Virus record (IMG/VR): IMGVR_UViG_3300036985_002636
Coordinates: 1-29,539 of that record
Length of the DNA: 29,539 nucleotides
Strand: one strand, 5' to 3'
From: a virus
Both the position numbers and the translations under genes were made by a program. This document shows positions 14,365-29,539 of this stretch, in pieces. The notes below the pieces were generated by a model, which did not search any database, had not been told where the DNA came from, and was given only the letters and a program-made list of their open reading frames with translations. Position 1 is the stretch's first letter. The number at the start of each line of letters is the position of its first letter.

Positions 14365-14685
14365 TTACGACAAAGATAAGAAGAACATTGCTAATGACCG
14401 ACAGGTTTTCTGAAAAAAAGTTTTTTTCTTTGGGACAGGTCTTTGTATGGTTGTATCAAAGATTACTTCCATATTGTTTTGAGGGTATAGGATAGGTCTT
14501 ACACTATCTTTCATAGTGAAGCTTCTAATCTCATCGTTCCATCTTTTTCCGTTCCTTATACGACAAATATGCTGTGTTGATACATTATACAATCTAGCAA
14601 TCTCTTTGTTAGTTAGTTGTGTTGTGTTAAACAGATGTTTCATTTCTTTAACATCTTCTTCGGTAAGTTTGTAAGCGCCAATCAA
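14365..14685 (-). CDS. Helix-turn-helix protein (106 aa)
   Basis: Residues 7-50 (LTEEDVKEMKHLFNTTQLTN, then KEIARLYNVSTQHICRIRNG) form an HTH of the kind that reads 'L...q..eIA..y.VS..hI..I..G', as in small phage regulators and homing-endonuclease tails. It resembles the plus-strand gene at 17061 in this domain. The C-terminal half is unlike a regulator: basic and then hydrophobic (KKTFFQKTCRSLAMFFLSLS). The start lies 1 base past the stop of the 90-aa gene. Probably a DNA-binding regulator; target unknown. Confidence 0.65.
   Translation of the reverse strand: MIGAYKLTEEDVKEMKHLFNTTQLTNKEIARLYNVSTQHICRIRNGKRWNDEIRSFTMKDSVRPILYPQNNMEVIFDTTIQRPVPKKKTFFQKTCRSLAMFFLSLS
14371..14378 (-). promoter_or_regulatory. 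-7 box candidate for the 137-aa gene
   Basis: TATCTTTG on the minus strand matches TAnnTTTG exactly and ends 24 nt before the ATG at 14346. No clear TTTG lies 19-20 nt upstream, so this is tentative. Confidence 0.35.
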
Positions 14686-16221: not shown

Positions 16222-16533
16222 TTAAATATCTTTGTTGTGTTGTTTTAGTCTGGTTTGGAACCAGTCATCACTATCTTTGTATTTGTAAAACCCTATTTCA
16301 GTTAAAATCCTTTTTACCTCTTCAGCCTCATTATCCATAGTTTTCTTATGTGATATTTTTGACCTACAAGACGAACACATTAAACAATTACCATAGGCAT
16401 CAATATAATTTACACACCCTCTAAACTTATTCTTTGGAAGCCATAACTCGCAATTGTGGCATTCGTATTCCCACTCTCCGTTGGGGTCTACTCTCTTTCT
16501 TCTTACTAATAAATAATCAGGTTGTTCTTCCAT
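16222..16533 (-). CDS. Zinc-finger protein of unknown function (103 aa)
   Basis: Begins MEEQPDYLLVRRKRVDPNGE. Two CxxC pairs (CHNC around residue 25 and CSSC around residue 53), with a Cys between them, frame a segment with LPKNKFRGC. This resembles the zinc knuckle of HNH/endonuclease VII-like or zinc-ribbon phage proteins, but the HNH catalytic His-Asn-His is not visible. It is the first minus-strand gene after the non-coding region. A large GC-rich hairpin sits a few bases before its ATG. Confidence 0.6.
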   Translation of the reverse strand: MEEQPDYLLVRRKRVDPNGEWEYECHNCELWLPKNKFRGCVNYIDAYGNCLMCSSCRSKISHKKTMDNEAEEVKRILTEIGFYKYKDSDDWFQTRLKQHNKDI

Positions 16534-16536
16534 AGG

Positions 16537-16615
16537 TTAAAAAGGGGGAGTAGTAAAAAAAAATATGCCAAGAAATCTTAATGGGAAAAGATTAAAGTAA
16601 AACTTACTCCCCCTT
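16537..16615 (-). promoter_or_regulatory. Leader hairpin (attenuator candidate) before the zinc-finger gene
   Basis: AAGGGGGAGTA (16542-16552) and TACTCCCCCTT (16605-16615) form a perfect 11-bp stem. A second stem lies inside the loop (AATCTT 16574-16579 with AAGATT 16588-16593). Read on the minus strand, the GC-rich side ends in CCCCCTTTTT only a few bases before the ATG at 16533. That looks like a terminator or attenuator placed in the leader. Confidence 0.55.
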
Positions 16616-16640
16616 GAATTATAAATATAATATAAAACAA

Positions 16641-16680
16641 AAAAACCCTAACTAGTATTAGTTAAGGTTTCTTTTTTTAT
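16641..16680. terminator. Bidirectional terminator-like hairpin
   Basis: TAACTA (16649-16654) pairs with TAGTTA (16659-16664), extended by AAACC / GGTTT around a C-A mismatch. It is flanked by an A run on the left (16639-16645) and a T run on the right (16672-16678), so it can act in both directions. Sits between the leader hairpin and the structured non-coding region. Confidence 0.65.
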
Positions 16681-16945
16681 TACTACTAGTTTACGGACTT
16701 AAGTAATAATATCTTTTATAAATTATAATCTTTTTGCTTATCTAGTAAATTGTATCTTATAAGCCAGTAAAAATATATTAGTGGATTTAAGGAAGGTGAT
16801 AAGTCCGCTCTAGATGCTAGTGCTAGAAGCACTTAATCAATCTAGAACCTTATCACTTTCTCAAAGAACTACTAGTGTCTTTTGAGGTTGAAGGGTATAA
16901 GTCCGTTGAATTACCTTCAAGTGAGTTAGAGTATTTCAACCCTAA
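16681..16945. ncRNA. Structured non-coding region, candidate RNA or cis-acting site
   Basis: No ORF on either strand. A long imperfect rod is formed by three nested stems. P1 is 16791-16803 with 16849-16861 (13 bp including two G-U). P2 is TCTAGAT/ATCTAGA (16809-16815 with 16840-16846). P3 is AGTGCT/AGCACT with an AGA loop (16819-16833). A hairpin follows (CTCAAAGA 16860-16867 with TCTTTTGAG 16878-16886). Then come two mutually exclusive stems: TTGAAGG/CCTTCAA (16888-16894 with 16914-16920) or GGTTGAA/TTCAACC (16886-16892 with 16935-16941). TAAGTCCG occurs at 16800-16807 and 16899-16906 region, and inverted at 16694-16701, so long-range pairing is possible. ACTACTAGT occurs at 16682-16690 and 16868-16876. 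It could be an RNA, a packaging site or a replication origin. The strand is unknown. Confidence 0.6.
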
Positions 16946-17015
16946 CATCAATAAATATATCAAATCAAAAATTAGTTTCAATACCCTTACAAAAAAAATA
17001 TGAAAATAATATTTA
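16946..17015. other. A/T-rich non-coding stretch
   Basis: Seventy bases with no ORF or clear hairpin between the structured region and the plus-strand promoter. Strongly A/T-rich (for example aaaaaaaata near 16991-17000), which could help DNA unwinding if the area is an origin. Nothing specific can be called. Confidence 0.4.
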
Positions 17016-17056
17016 TTATAGGAACTTGACTGATGTTCCTAAATATACTATAATTA
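17016..17056 (+). promoter_or_regulatory. Promoter and operator of the plus-strand HTH gene
   Basis: -33 TTG (17026-17028), 20-nt spacer, -7 TATAATTA (17049-17056), 4 nt to the ATG at 17061. The block TTATAGGAACTTGACT (17016-17031) is the exact reverse complement of the 16-mer in the two early minus-strand promoters. Here the inverted repeat is AGGAAC-N9-GTTCCT (17020-17040), placed across the -33, as expected of an autoregulatory operator. Confidence 0.7.
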
Positions 17057-17060
17057 AAAT

Positions 17061-17273
17061 ATGCCACAAATCAAACTATCATTTACACAGGTAAGAAATA
17101 TTAAGAAACTTCTATTACAAGGGAGTTTAACTCACGCACAGATTGCCAAGAGATATGGTGTCTCAAGAGGACATATAACTAAAATAGGGATTGGAATGAA
17201 AGACCCAAGTAAAGATTACGGAAAATGGAAAACTCTTGAACTTATAGAGAAACCACTTGACGATAAAGATTAA
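17061..17273 (+). CDS. Small HTH regulator, only plus-strand gene (70 aa)
   Basis: Residues 6-48 (LSFTQVRNIKKLLLQGSLTH, then AQIAKRYGVSRGHITKIGIG) form a clear HTH. It is followed by a charged tail (KDPSKDYGKWKTLELIEKPL). Predicted to bind DNA, presumably the GGAAC/GTTCC half-sites in its own promoter and in the two early promoters that share the 16-bp block. It faces away from all other genes and ends in its own terminator. The small size and its apparent leaderless mRNA suggest an early repressor or transcription switch. It resembles the HTH part of the 106-aa protein at 14365. The function is inference; the HTH is seen. Confidence 0.75.
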   Translation: MPQIKLSFTQVRNIKKLLLQGSLTHAQIAKRYGVSRGHITKIGIGMKDPSKDYGKWKTLELIEKPLDDKD

Positions 17274-20088: not shown

Positions 20089-20304
20089 TTATTCTATAAT
20101 TATCGGCTCAACCCATTCAATTAAAGGTAAGTTTTTTACCCATTCATTTTGGGGGTATATTGACCCATTTATTTCTTCTTGGGATATAATCCAATTAGAA
20201 GGTATGTTTCCGTCTAAAACGGGATAGAAATACCAATCGGGTTGAACTAATTGTCCCTCCAAATCGGTCTTCTGTAATTCTGTAAGTTTTCCAACTAATA
20301 TCAT
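20089..20304 (-). CDS. Small Trp-rich protein of unknown function (71 aa)
   Basis: Begins MILVGKLTELQKTDLEGQLV. Has several Trp and Pro residues (QPDWYFYPVLDG, NEWVKNLPLIEWVEPIIIE). I recall similar small proteins near fibre genes of Bacteroidota phages but cannot name a family. ATG overlaps the long adhesin stop as ATGA, which suggests a co-translated partner such as an assembly factor or small trimer subunit; this is inference. Confidence 0.5.
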   Translation of the reverse strand: MILVGKLTELQKTDLEGQLVQPDWYFYPVLDGNIPSNWIISQEEINGSIYPQNEWVKNLPLIEWVEPIIIE

Positions 20305-23093
20305 AATCTGCCGAGTGCTGTATTAAAGTTAGTAATGATTGTGTTTAATGTAGATACTTGAGCGTTTGTGAATGGGTCAGTAGTAATCATAAACCAGTTG
20401 TAATGTCTTGTAGTTGGACTACCACCTACATTTCTAGCTCTCATTACATACATACTTAATGTTGTTCCACCACCAGCGGCTATTACTTCAGTTCCTAATA
20501 CCGAACCATTACCATAACCTCTAACATCGCTAACATCTAATCTTTGTAGGAAGTTAAATCCAACTGCGGTAGGATTAGAATAACCAAAAATTACTCCACT
20601 AGTATCGTCTTGAATAGTGCCCAACATATTACCACCACTATTACCTCTTGAGTTCATATATGTTCTACGACCAGGGCTTGTAGTTTGTGCTCCCATATCA
20701 TAACGATTATCAGCGTTTGATGGATTGTTTCTTGAATACACACCAAGACCCGTAAGTCCTCCCGCACCATCAACACTTTCAACCCAACTAGTATCACCAA
20801 ATCCGTTTATACCATTACTTTCAACTTGTGATGAACTGAATGTAATACCACCCGCCCAAGTGATATTAAATGTGCCAGGGTTCTTTGCGTTTATTGCGGT
20901 TGATGCTGATGTTCCACCCAATATTGGATATAACACACCAAACTTACTCCACAAACTATTATCCTTCAATTCTGCGAACATAGAATATGTTGCCGCTGAA
21001 ATACTTGGACTTAATGTTCCTCCCGCAGCAACCACCGCATTTAAGTAAGTTGTAGCATCACTATCAGGTGAAGAACTACAACCATTAAATCCTGCTCCTT
21101 GAGGGAAACCACCAACAATATACCAAGTTGCGTAATTACCTACCGACATTTGATTTGAGTAGTAAGCCGTTGGAACGGGGATTGTAAGTGCTGGGTCTAA
21201 ATAAACTTGTTGTGATGTAGTTAAACAAGCCCAACAAGTAAGTCCCCCACTAATACAACCACCACAATTACCTAAATCAGCGGCATAAACATTAAAGTAT
21301 GGTGCTATTTCACAAGCGTCATCTTGAGTTGATGCTGATGAAACCAAGAAGGTTAAAGGTGGTAATGGACTTGCCGATGGAGTTGGGGTCATCGTAGGTG
21401 TCTCCGTTGGTGTATTCGTAGGTGTATTCGTAGGAGTTAAAGTATTCGTAGGAGTTAAAGTAGGAGTTGGGGTAGTAGTTGGAGTAGTCGTAGGAGTTGG
21501 GGTCTTGGTCTGTGTAGGCGTTGGGGTAGGACTAAATGGAGGGACTGGTTGGCAATCACTCCAAGTATTACTATTTGACGACCATACTTCAGTAATAGCA
21601 GACCACGAACAATCAAATCCTGGCGCTGGAGTTGTAGTTGGCGTAGGTGTTGGCGTTGGTGAAGGACAACTACCACCAGCAACTGCCGAACCACCGCCGT
21701 CCCAAGACATAGTATTATCTTTAGCACAAACTTGTCCTATACTTGAACCACTCAAATAAGTGCTTCCCGATATACCATCACAATCAATATAATAAAAATT
21801 AGAACCACTACCACCAGCAATTAGGTTATACAATATACACGCCCCACTTGTTGCTGATGGAGTTGGGGTCATCGTAGGACTTTCCGTTGGTGTAGGTGTT
21901 AAACTCTCGGTAGGAGTTGGGGTCTGTGTATTAGTTGGAGTTAAAGTAGGAGTTGTTGTCGGAGTGCTTGAAGGGCTCACACTAATACTTGGAGTATTTG
22001 TTGGAGTTAAAGTAGGAGTTGTTGTTGCTGTTTGAGTTGGAGTTTGAGTGTTGGTAGGAGTAATCGTAGGAGTAGGAGTTAAACTCTCGGTAGGAGTATT
22101 CGTAGGAGTTGTTGTTGTGGTTTGAGTAGGAGTAATACTTGGGGTAATACTTGGGGTAGGCGTAGGACTAACACTCTCCGTAGGTGTAGTCGTTGGGGTA
22201 ATACTTGGAGTAATACTTGGAGTATTCGTAGGAGTATAGGTCGGCGTTTGTGTTGGACTTTCCGTTGGGGTATTTGTTGGAGTTAAAGTAGGAGTTTGTG
22301 TGGTTGTAGGCGTTGGAGTAGAACTCGCACCAGGACTACCACTTGGACTTGGAGTAATCGTGTTTGTAGGAGTTATGGAAGGAGTTTGTGTGGTTGTTGG
22401 TGTCGTTGTATTGGTAGGAGTAATTGAAGGTGTTAGAGACGATGTAGGAGTATTCGTTGGAGTTGTGGTAGGAGTTTGAGTTGGCGTAGTTGTAGGCGTA
22501 ATTGTTGATGTCGGTGTCTTGGTTGGACTTACCGATGGAGTAATACTTGGGGTATTTGTAGGTGTTGAAGTTGGGGTTTTAGTCGGTGTAGGTGTGCTTG
22601 TCTTGGTTGGGGTCGGGCTTGGAGTTATAGATGTTGTAGGTTGTGGTGTGGCAGAAACATTATAGTAAATTACATTATTAGCAGTATTTGCTGTGTTTCC
22701 TGTGTAGTATTCCAAGTTTTCATCAACAAAAATAAATCCTAATGATGAAACCAATTTATCATAGGTAAGATTTACATTTAAGTTTGTTGGTGATGCTTGT
22801 TCGTAAACACCAATCCAATATTGGTTCTCGTTTTTGAGGTGTAAGTTTACAGGTGTTCCCGCACTAAAAATATAATTTGTCGCACCACTCAAGAATGTAT
22901 TGAACGAAAATACATCATACTTTGACGCATAAGCTGATGGGTAAGTTGAACTAACATTTTCAGGAATAAAAGTATAGCTCTCCTTACTCTGTGAGTTTTG
23001 TAATCTCCAAAGATAAGTTGGATTTGCTAATGTCTTAAACTCACTAGCCAAGACAAAAAGGTTGTTCGTTGCGTTTTGTTGAATGTATAACAT
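20301..23093 (-). CDS. Long adhesin with Pro/Thr stalks and Cys modules (930 aa)
   Basis: The N-terminal domain (residues 1-145, MLYIQQNATNNLFVLASEFK...) is probably the virion-anchoring part. A Pro/Thr/Ser stalk runs from about 147 to 414 (units such as TPTNTPSITPS). A Cys-rich module (about 416-478) follows, then a short stalk, a second small Cys module, a second long PT stalk (about 519-578) and a third Cys module (about 580-670). The C-terminal head (about 671-930) is homologous to that of the 367-aa adhesin: 'D.DA..YL..V.A.GG', 'LYPILGGTSAS', 'KNPG'. Probably a tail- or capsid-borne host-binding fibre. The stalk DNA is repetitive and could vary in length by slippage. It begins 1 base after the shorter adhesin's stop. 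Confidence 0.7.
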   Translation of the reverse strand: MLYIQQNATNNLFVLASEFKTLANPTYLWRLQNSQSKESYTFIPENVSSTYPSAYASKYDVFSFNTFLSGATNYIFSAGTPVNLHLKNENQYWIGVYEQASPTNLNVNLTYDKLVSSLGFIFVDENLEYYTGNTANTANNVIYYNVSATPQPTTSITPSPTPTKTSTPTPTKTPTSTPTNTPSITPSVSPTKTPTSTITPTTTPTQTPTTTPTNTPTSSLTPSITPTNTTTPTTTQTPSITPTNTITPSPSGSPGASSTPTPTTTQTPTLTPTNTPTESPTQTPTYTPTNTPSITPSITPTTTPTESVSPTPTPSITPSITPTQTTTTTPTNTPTESLTPTPTITPTNTQTPTQTATTTPTLTPTNTPSISVSPSSTPTTTPTLTPTNTQTPTPTESLTPTPTESPTMTPTPSATSGACILYNLIAGGSGSNFYYIDCDGISGSTYLSGSSIGQVCAKDNTMSWDGGGSAVAGGSCPSPTPTPTPTTTPAPGFDCSWSAITEVWSSNSNTWSDCQPVPPFSPTPTPTQTKTPTPTTTPTTTPTPTLTPTNTLTPTNTPTNTPTETPTMTPTPSASPLPPLTFLVSSASTQDDACEIAPYFNVYAADLGNCGGCISGGLTCWACLTTSQQVYLDPALTIPVPTAYYSNQMSVGNYATWYIVGGFPQGAGFNGCSSSPDSDATTYLNAVVAAGGTLSPSISAATYSMFAELKDNSLWSKFGVLYPILGGTSASTAINAKNPGTFNITWAGGITFSSSQVESNGINGFGDTSWVESVDGAGGLTGLGVYSRNNPSNADNRYDMGAQTTSPGRRTYMNSRGNSGGNMLGTIQDDTSGVIFGYSNPTAVGFNFLQRLDVSDVRGYGNGSVLGTEVIAAGGGTTLSMYVMRARNVGGSPTTRHYNWFMITTDPFTNAQVSTLNTIITNFNTALGRL
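21367..21535 (-). repeat. Short-period coding repeat, second PT stalk
   Basis: Degenerate in-frame Pro/Thr codon repeats within the 930-aa adhesin, for about 55 residues. Sits between the second and third Cys modules. Confidence 0.75.
21850..22640 (-). repeat. Short-period coding repeat, main PT stalk of the long adhesin
   Basis: Roughly 260 codons of Thr-Pro alternation with Ser, Asn, Thr and Gln variants (for example TPTNTPSITPSITPT). The DNA shows corresponding 6-12-base imperfect repeats such as 'ggagtaatacttgg'. Assembly collapse or strain-to-strain length change is plausible here. Confidence 0.8.
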
Positions 23094-23094
23094 A

Positions 23095-24198
23095 TTATGC
23101 GTTTGTATTTCTACCTAAAGTTGATTGGAATACTAATACAGCATTATAGTAATCGGTTGCTTGAGTATCAGTTATACCAAGACCAAAACTAAAGAATGCG
23201 TATCTTTCACCTGATGGGAAACCTGAACCATTAACTTTCGCAATCGTTATAGTATTTGATGGGTATGTTGTTGGTGCTGTTGTGTTTGTTCCTCCTGAAC
23301 CCCAAGCACCACCATCTAATGAACGGAATACTTTTGTAAGATTTGACGCAGTCCTTGTTCCTAAAGCTGCTCCATAACTAGTAAATGTTCCAGCGGCACT
23401 TACTACCGCATTACTACTAAAGAACTCAACAGCAGGGTGTCCTAATATGAAATATGGGCTAGGTCCAGCACCATCATAAGTTGATGCTCCACAAGACCCA
23501 ACTCTGTTATAATAACCGAACATATGATTACTAGTTGGGTTAAGACTGGTTGCGGCATATTGAGTATCTGCGTAGTTAGCAACATTACAAACTGGTTGAG
23601 CACCCTTATTGTTATGAACCCAAGAACCATTAAATGTTAAAGTTTGAGCACCACCAGGGTTTTTACCTTCAACTGCGTGTGAGTTTTGTGTTCCACCCAG
23701 TATTGGATAGAATGCTGTTAGTCGTGAATAAACACCTGCCGATTTAAGTGAGCCGTATAAAGTATTTGTTGCTGCGGACATCGTAGCATCTACACTACCT
23801 CCTTGAGCAATTACTTGAGCCAAATAAGCCGCAGCATCAGCGTCAAAAGCAGGGCCTGGACTTGCCGATGGAGTTGGGGTATTAGTTGGAGTTCTTGTTA
23901 AAGTAGGAGTAATACTCGGTGTAATACTTGGGGTAATACTTGGAGTAATAGACGGCGTTTGAGTTGGAGTTTTTGTTAAAGTAGGAGTGATACTCGGGGT
24001 AATACTTGGAGTAATACTTGGGGTAATAGTCGGAGTTGGTGTCTGTGTTGGTGTTTTTGTTGGAGTAATCGTTGGCGTTGGTGATGGGCTTGGTGGTGGT
24101 GGTGTCGCACCAAAAATGTTGGGAACTAAACCCCCATAGTTAAACACATATTGACCCTGAAAAAGAGTTCTCTGTAAGGATTTTTGGATTTCAGCCAT
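23095..24198 (-). CDS. Short adhesin with Pro/Thr stalk (367 aa)
   Basis: An N-terminal segment (MAEIQKSLQRTLFQGQYVFN, GGLVPNIFG) is followed by a PT stalk from about residue 29 to 111, including repeated SITP units. The C-terminal head (about 113-367) shares with the long adhesin the pattern 'DADAAAYLAQVIAQGGS', 'YPILGGTQNS', 'KNPGG', and a common ending ('STLGRN' against 'TALGRL'). Head homology suggests duplication followed by divergence, perhaps to widen receptor range or make a heteromeric fibre. Overlaps the 82-aa gene by 8 bases. Confidence 0.7.
   Translation of the reverse strand: MAEIQKSLQRTLFQGQYVFNYGGLVPNIFGATPPPPSPSPTPTITPTKTPTQTPTPTITPSITPSITPSITPTLTKTPTQTPSITPSITPSITPSITPTLTRTPTNTPTPSASPGPAFDADAAAYLAQVIAQGGSVDATMSAATNTLYGSLKSAGVYSRLTAFYPILGGTQNSHAVEGKNPGGAQTLTFNGSWVHNNKGAQPVCNVANYADTQYAATSLNPTSNHMFGYYNRVGSCGASTYDGAGPSPYFILGHPAVEFFSSNAVVSAAGTFTSYGAALGTRTASNLTKVFRSLDGGAWGSGGTNTTAPTTYPSNTITIAKVNGSGFPSGERYAFFSFGLGITDTQATDYYNAVLVFQSTLGRNTNA
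23866..24110 (-). repeat. Short-period coding repeat, PT stalk of the short adhesin
   Basis: About 80 codons of Pro/Thr/Ser/Ile repeats with several near-identical 12-base units (ggagtaatactt, ggggtaatactt) encoding SITP. Confidence 0.75.
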
Positions 24199-29101: not shown

Positions 29102-29539
29102 TTACAACCTAGCTAGTTGTGTAATTTTTTGATTTAGTTTAGTTGTATCTTGTATGTCGTTATACAATACATATGCTTTAAGAGGTTGTTTGTTGCCAGT
29201 ATTTTGTGAAGCAATTGCTTGGACTATTCTACTATCATCAATCGTCAGGGCTCTGCCGCCAGTGCTATTATTTATTGACGATATAACATCTCCGAATTGT
29301 CTTACACCCTCCTTATTTACCACGAACTCCCCTCCTTCAAGTAATGCTGGAACTCCACCATTTGCTCCCTCGTGGCTTTCACCCATAATAAGACCACCTC
29401 GTCTACCCACAAACGCTTTGGATTGCGTGAATTGGATTTGGTCTCTGATGATAGCTGCTTGAGCAATCGTCAATCCACCAACAACACCTGCGTATATTAT
29501 TGGAATTGGTGGTGGTGCCTTTAGAGCCAATGCGTTCAA
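29102..29539 (-). CDS. Tail tape measure protein, C-terminal part (gene crosses contig ends)
   Basis: The final 145 codons of the tape measure gene before the stop at 29102; bases 29413-29539 repeat bases 1-127. Contains the C-terminal signature GGLIMGESHEGANGGVPALL, then EGGEFVVNKEGVRQFGDVIS, typical of the end of tape measure proteins (a glycine-rich 'G....E.G.PE.v' like region). The apparent start codon near 29539 is a TTG inside the gene, not a true start. Confidence 0.9.
   Translation of the reverse strand: MNALALKAPPPIPIIYAGVVGGLTIAQAAIIRDQIQFTQSKAFVGRRGGLIMGESHEGANGGVPALLEGGEFVVNKEGVRQFGDVISSINNSTGGRALTIDDSRIVQAIASQNTGNKQPLKAYVLYNDIQDTTKLNQKITQLARL
29413..29539. repeat. Terminal direct repeat, second copy
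   Basis: Identical to bases 1-127; assembly overlap of a circular genome. Confidence 0.95.

Follow-up and report, generated by a model that had tools for sequence, protein, structure and literature searches.

A predicted stand-alone structured RNA gene on the minus strand of a 29.4-kb tailed phage genome

The window, by which we mean the whole 29,539-nucleotide stretch of DNA analyzed here, is a complete phage genome, circular (or circularly permuted) as assembled and ~29.4 kb in length, since bases 1–127 recur at 29413–29539 as a 127-base direct terminal repeat. We refer to this phage as W and to related phage contigs and genomes by L- and G-numbers. W has genes for terminase, portal, capsid, and tail proteins, almost all of them on the minus strand. 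The closest named relatives of its terminase belong to Bacteroides phages (~33% identity), and the matches include many Flavobacterium phages; the host is therefore probably a member of the Bacteroidota. Across the whole genome of this complete tailed phage, no recognized replication, integrase, or repressor gene was found, and the window contains no tRNA. Two small HTH proteins (17061–17273, plus strand; 14365–14685, minus strand) weakly match homing endonucleases in their DNA-binding tail. In the tail region (20301–24198), the encoded proteins have very long threonine-proline repeats (TPTPT/SITPS), which coincide with a local GC-skew peak.

Between the portal and small-terminase genes, in W and its clade, lies an AT-rich intergenic region, which in W is flanked by divergent genes and has no ORF of at least 50 amino acids from 16534 to 17060. 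A preliminary description had placed a structured, ORF-free element at 16681–16945, and inspection of the sequence located all of its repeats and stems: TAAGTCCG occurs at 16800 and 16898 on the plus strand and CGGACTTA at 16694, ACTACTAGT is duplicated (~16682 and ~16869), and the nested rod of GAAGGTGATAAG, TCTAGAT, and AGTGCT is present. The structure also exceeds chance (fold z = -3.85 on the plus strand and -2.53 on the minus strand for the same interval). While the region thus proved real, its strand had been left unidentified and its limits required correction: the functional strand is the minus strand, and the unit appears to span 16639–16948 plus a promoter.

The promoter-like element TTGAAAC-N15-TATATTTAT (16951–16981, minus strand), which can be read directly in the sequence, points leftwards into this unit. 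Its AT box is placed identically in nearly all homologues and is similar to TAnnTTTG, the -7 consensus for flavobacterial sigma-A (PMC9723704). TATATTTAT occurs four times in the window, always on the minus strand (16959, 16629, 14982, and 12358), including sites preceding the next operon and the large terminase; this count is of modest significance (1.06 expected, with 5 of 100 shuffles reaching four). The unit closes with a same-strand intrinsic terminator, AAACCTTAACTA-ATAC-TAGTTAGGGTTT-TTTT (16639–16672), and most homologues end in the same way. The promoter and terminator delimit a predicted 310-nt noncoding RNA (16948–16639, minus strand), whose fold is considerably more stable than those of shuffled sequences (z = -4.68). 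In the reliable helices H4, H3, and core H1a, described below, the minus strand has 32 G·U and no A·C cells across homologues. These 32 cells become A·C mismatches when read on the plus strand, and we reject a plus-strand RNA, which we had folded first, on the basis of this asymmetry and of the orientation of the promoter and terminator. A stand-alone minus-strand RNA gene, composed of a promoter-like box, a structured body, and an intrinsic terminator, is well supported by comparison of sequences, and we infer transcription from its own promoter with a discrete 3' end.

The predicted RNA would fold from its 5' end into three hairpins (H4, H3, and H2) and a branched helix (H1), followed by a fourth hairpin (H5) and the terminator, all on the minus strand. 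H4 (16925–16946) has the stem GTTAGGGT/ACTCTAAC closing a TGAAAT loop; 99.4% of its cells are paired among homologues, and seven of its eight pairs have changed on both sides. H3 (16888–16920; stem TTGAAGG/CCTTCAA) is 92.9% paired, with four of seven pairs changed on both sides, and its loop bears a nearly invariant GGACTTA, the complement of the plus-strand TAAGTCCG at 16898. H2 (16860–16886; stem CTCAAA/TTTGAG) is partly misaligned and 70.8% paired, and its stem letters differ completely among homologues (ACATC/GATGT, TAACC/GGTTA, and others). H1 (16794–16858) consists of an outer helix, H1a (AAGTGATAAG/CTTATCACCT), and an inner module, H1b/H1c, and bears the second GGACTTA, which corresponds to the plus-strand TAAGTCCG at 16800. 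H1a pairs in 92.2% of cells, and with L280 and L329 counted in, both bases have changed in five of its ten pairs. It seemed nearly invariant at first, but L329 forms it from different bases, GGGAGU/ACUCCC replacing the GUGAUAAG/CUUAUCAC helix. The inner module takes one of two forms, TCTAGAT...ATCTAGA or G-rich, which have been exchanged between near-identical phages (W versus L002, and L006 versus L007). The last hairpin, H5 (16678–16711), has the stem TATTATTACT/AGTAGTAATA, and its complementarity covaries with the H3 loop.

The helices were named by hand and their pairs counted, because RNAalifold had recovered only one helix from an anchored alignment. In alignment A5, 22 sequences aligned to a covariance model and hence leaning towards the structure, 83.9% of cells are paired and both bases have changed in 32 of 42 pairs, with a covariation score of 0.427 (0.176 when shuffled), which none of 500 shuffles reached. 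A plain MAFFT alignment of 20 sequences gave 0.293 for the same named structure (0.158 when shuffled, again 0 of 500), and the score fell to at most 0.14 once the structure was slid along the alignment. Comparison among homologues thereby shows the structure, the strand, a loop-loop pairing, and their conservation, and we consider it very probable that the locus is an RNA gene with this fold.

The loop-loop pairing involves the repeated heptamer. On the RNA, the copies become a single AAGUCC near the 3' end and, in the 5' domain, two GGACUUA, of which the first is in the H3 loop and the second adjoins and partly overlaps H1a. The H5 loop, TAAGTCCGT, is complementary to ACGGACTTA of the H3 loop over 9 bp. 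Most homologues display the 3' motif in a hairpin loop, although their stems differ and the display is individually significant in about half of cases; the loop is that of the terminator itself in L284, L229, L272, L280, L260, L124, and L006/L007. The motif was absent from the stretch searched in five homologues, two of them on truncated contigs. The 3' motif follows changes in the H3 loop, as in L155 (UAAGUCCCGA/UCGGGACUUA), L009 (ACAAGUCCU/AGGACUUGU), and L036 (UCCCUAGA/UCUAGGGA). Its complement to the H3 loop averages 8.2 nt versus 7.04 with partners permuted (0 of 2000), a permutation that ignores relatedness, so that part of the signal may reflect clade structure; its complement to the H1 copy averages 7.45 nt versus 7.06. 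The preliminary description had proposed a switching RNA in which the upstream motif pairs with either of two downstream copies. Covariation favors one of these pairings, 16694–16701 with 16898–16906, and the pairing with the copy at 16800 is weaker, which argues against two equivalent partners. Pairing of the H3 GGACUU loop with the H5 hairpin loop, at or near the terminator, is shown to be conserved by this comparison, and may form within one molecule or between two, both being compatible with the sequence.

Relatives were collected from IMG/VR by portal, terminase, and motif scans, and 27 distinct homologues of the RNA were identified in these phage contigs, 26 by an iterated nucleotide profile and one more in L329. 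A covariance model recovered two copies left out of its training (L280, E = 2e-12; L329, E = 2.5e-12). The loose motif scans mostly matched by chance, and their matches were retained only where the profile or the covariance model also found them. The homologues span phages whose portals are, at the lowest, only 22–32% identical. In closer relatives of W the element lies between the same gene blocks, in opposite orientation in L009, and its neighbor in L285-type phages is an early-gene operon, not the portal and terminase genes. The near-identical phages L006 (3783–4474) and L007 (8503–8997) differ in their inner module, which is swapped, and in an insertion that separates the 5' domain from the 3' hairpin, a cassette with a small ORF and a promoter-like box of its own.

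Neither the window nor the homologues matched Rfam 15 above the gathering threshold, and a relaxed search returned only chance-level matches (E of 1.3 or worse). Likewise, blastn against plasmids and 50,697 named phages gave no match to the RNA, and no description of it was found in the literature. Three matches in bacterial genomes are one and the same Lachnospiraceae stretch without the fold and were taken as chance. These searches and the strong covariation bear out the earlier impression of a structured RNA resembling no known class, and the RNA in all likelihood constitutes a previously undescribed family. Like GOLLD and ROOL, ornate RNAs of phages and prophages, it is phage-encoded, intergenic, and structured, and has kissing loops. 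Both are much larger, GOLLD often exceeding 800 nt, and are usually located near tRNA islands (PMC12286853), unlike the ~310-nt RNA of the tRNA-free window, which had no match to the GOLLD or ROOL Rfam models. The new family adds a well-supported structured RNA to phages, in which few are known, and the existence of closely related phages with and without it is a natural experiment through which its function can be tested.

In nine relatives that lack the RNA, its slot is occupied by one of three kinds of gene. This is a DnaB helicase in L016, L018, L048, L065, and L072 (phrog_19, E of 1e-49 to 1e-55), an HTH_36 protein resembling replication initiators in L013 and L035, and a DUF6291 protein in L067 and L335, the last having a terminase 95% identical to that of the RNA-bearing L285. 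None of the three proteins was found in any RNA-bearing contig searched. Replication families occur among the Pfam/PHROGs matches of the RNA-less set, and none occurs among the top 25 listed matches of the complete RNA-bearing genomes W, G001, and G007; the contigs are related, and these counts of presence and absence are accordingly not independent. There are four exceptions, L011 (complete), L317, L331, and L324, which have neither the RNA nor DnaB nor, where searched, DUF6291. A different RNA in the L011 slot was considered and rejected, its fold being no more stable than shuffles (z = 0.43). The slot is also taken by small ORFs in some relatives. In L317 (7019–7640) and L319 (1310–1914) it contains a long noncoding stretch with many CTAGAACTAGCA repeats, and the promoter side of this stretch alone matches the RNA profile.

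Replacement of the RNA by replication-type genes is suggestive, not proof. The ~310-nt RNA would begin near 16948 and stop at the terminator at 16639, with its 3' end returned to the 5' domain by the contact between GGACUU (H3 loop) and AAGUCC (H5 loop). Because helicase- or initiator-type genes hold its slot in RNA-less relatives, we propose that it may serve phage DNA replication as a primer or as a recruiter of the host replisome. Such a role is our preferred reading but a tentative possibility, because the four exceptional relatives also lack the helicase; the explanation as a whole, in which the RNA gene and its fold are blended with replication, is somewhat probable. An origin-related role, raised in the preliminary description, is thus hinted at by the genes found in place of the RNA. 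The GC skew is uninformative in this regard, with no switch at the region and confounded by gene strand, and the region contains no DnaA boxes. Weighing against replication, the role of DUF6291 is unproven and HTH_36 is only replication-like, and small replication proteins without family matches could exist in RNA-bearing phages. In the replication reading, the RNA would resemble ColE1 RNA II/RNA I as a structured loop-loop RNA at the replication locus of an element that encodes no initiator. This likeness is a working analogy only: in W a strong terminator precedes any origin, the sequence is not similar to that of ColE1, and no counter-transcript was identified; a simple pattern search for a plus-strand promoter within 16639–16948, as for an antisense RNA I, found none. 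A simple ColE1-type primer must run into the origin, and the strong terminator argues against one here. If the replication link is true, W would be a tailed phage with an RNA in place of replication proteins, and the start of DNA synthesis in ~29-kb phages without recognizable replication genes would be explained. It is rather doubtful, as a wider generalization, that small tailed dsDNA phages lacking helicase, primase, and initiator genes start DNA synthesis by a kissing-loop RNA interchangeable with DnaB/initiator modules.

The main rival to a replication role, and a serious possibility though short of probable, is a trans-acting regulatory or immunity-type small RNA, which would act on phage or host RNAs via its exposed GGACUU/AAGUCC loops and swappable inner module and have no part in replication, the slot being a variable accessory region. 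The predicted promoter and terminator of its own, the exchange of the module between near-identical phages (W/L002 and L006/L007), the dispensability of the element and its inversion relative to neighbors in L009, and the small ORFs that can occupy the slot all fit this account. However, the slot is otherwise filled mostly by replication-type genes, the loops pair mutually instead of varying like target-specific seeds, and no target was identified.

An unlikely alternative is a cis-acting 5' leader or attenuator, in which contact of the 5' domain with the terminator loop controls read-through to the downstream gene. L260, L124, and L280 do have a small membrane-protein ORF between the 5' domain and the motif-bearing terminator, and L014 and L276 have the motif loop in the leader of the next operon. 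But the downstream genes vary among phages (none, a membrane protein, or other small proteins), many homologues including W have no ORF ahead of the terminator, promoter-like boxes of their own are common among inserted ORFs (L006 versus L007), and no alternative anti-terminator pairing is conserved; nor does the RNA have a fixed place upstream of one gene family on the same strand. It resembles the HK022 put and other processive antitermination RNAs in being a phage RNA with paired stem-loops near the start of a transcription unit, but in W it ends at a strong terminator, and the downstream operon is inconsistent.

A DNA-level element, such as a hairpin origin or a recombination or att site, would suit an AT-rich intergenic location between divergent units, and single-stranded DNA also permits G·T wobble. 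This is improbable, in that the fold is flanked by a promoter and a terminator in sense orientation alone, a double-stranded recognition site would not yield the wobble asymmetry, and the skew, confounded as noted, does not switch here. Least probable of all is a packaging RNA or pac/cos site, also suggested earlier: despite its location in the W clade, where portal and small-terminase genes flank it, and the likeness to phi29 packaging RNA (pRNA), likewise a small phage RNA with complementary loops that uses loop-loop contacts, the RNA does not follow the terminase, being absent from relatives with 72–75% identical large terminases and 58–66% identical portals, has no fixed place beside packaging genes, as the early-operon location in L285-type phages illustrates, has no Rfam match, and has its own predicted promoter and terminator.

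A second conserved leader-like hairpin occurs at 16542–16615 on the minus strand, between a TATATTTAT box and the gene at 16533. Its stem, AAGGGGGAGTA/TACTCCCCCTT, closes a loop containing TTCCCAT and GGCAT, and this closing stem is altered yet still paired in L007, L036, L067, L011, and L014.
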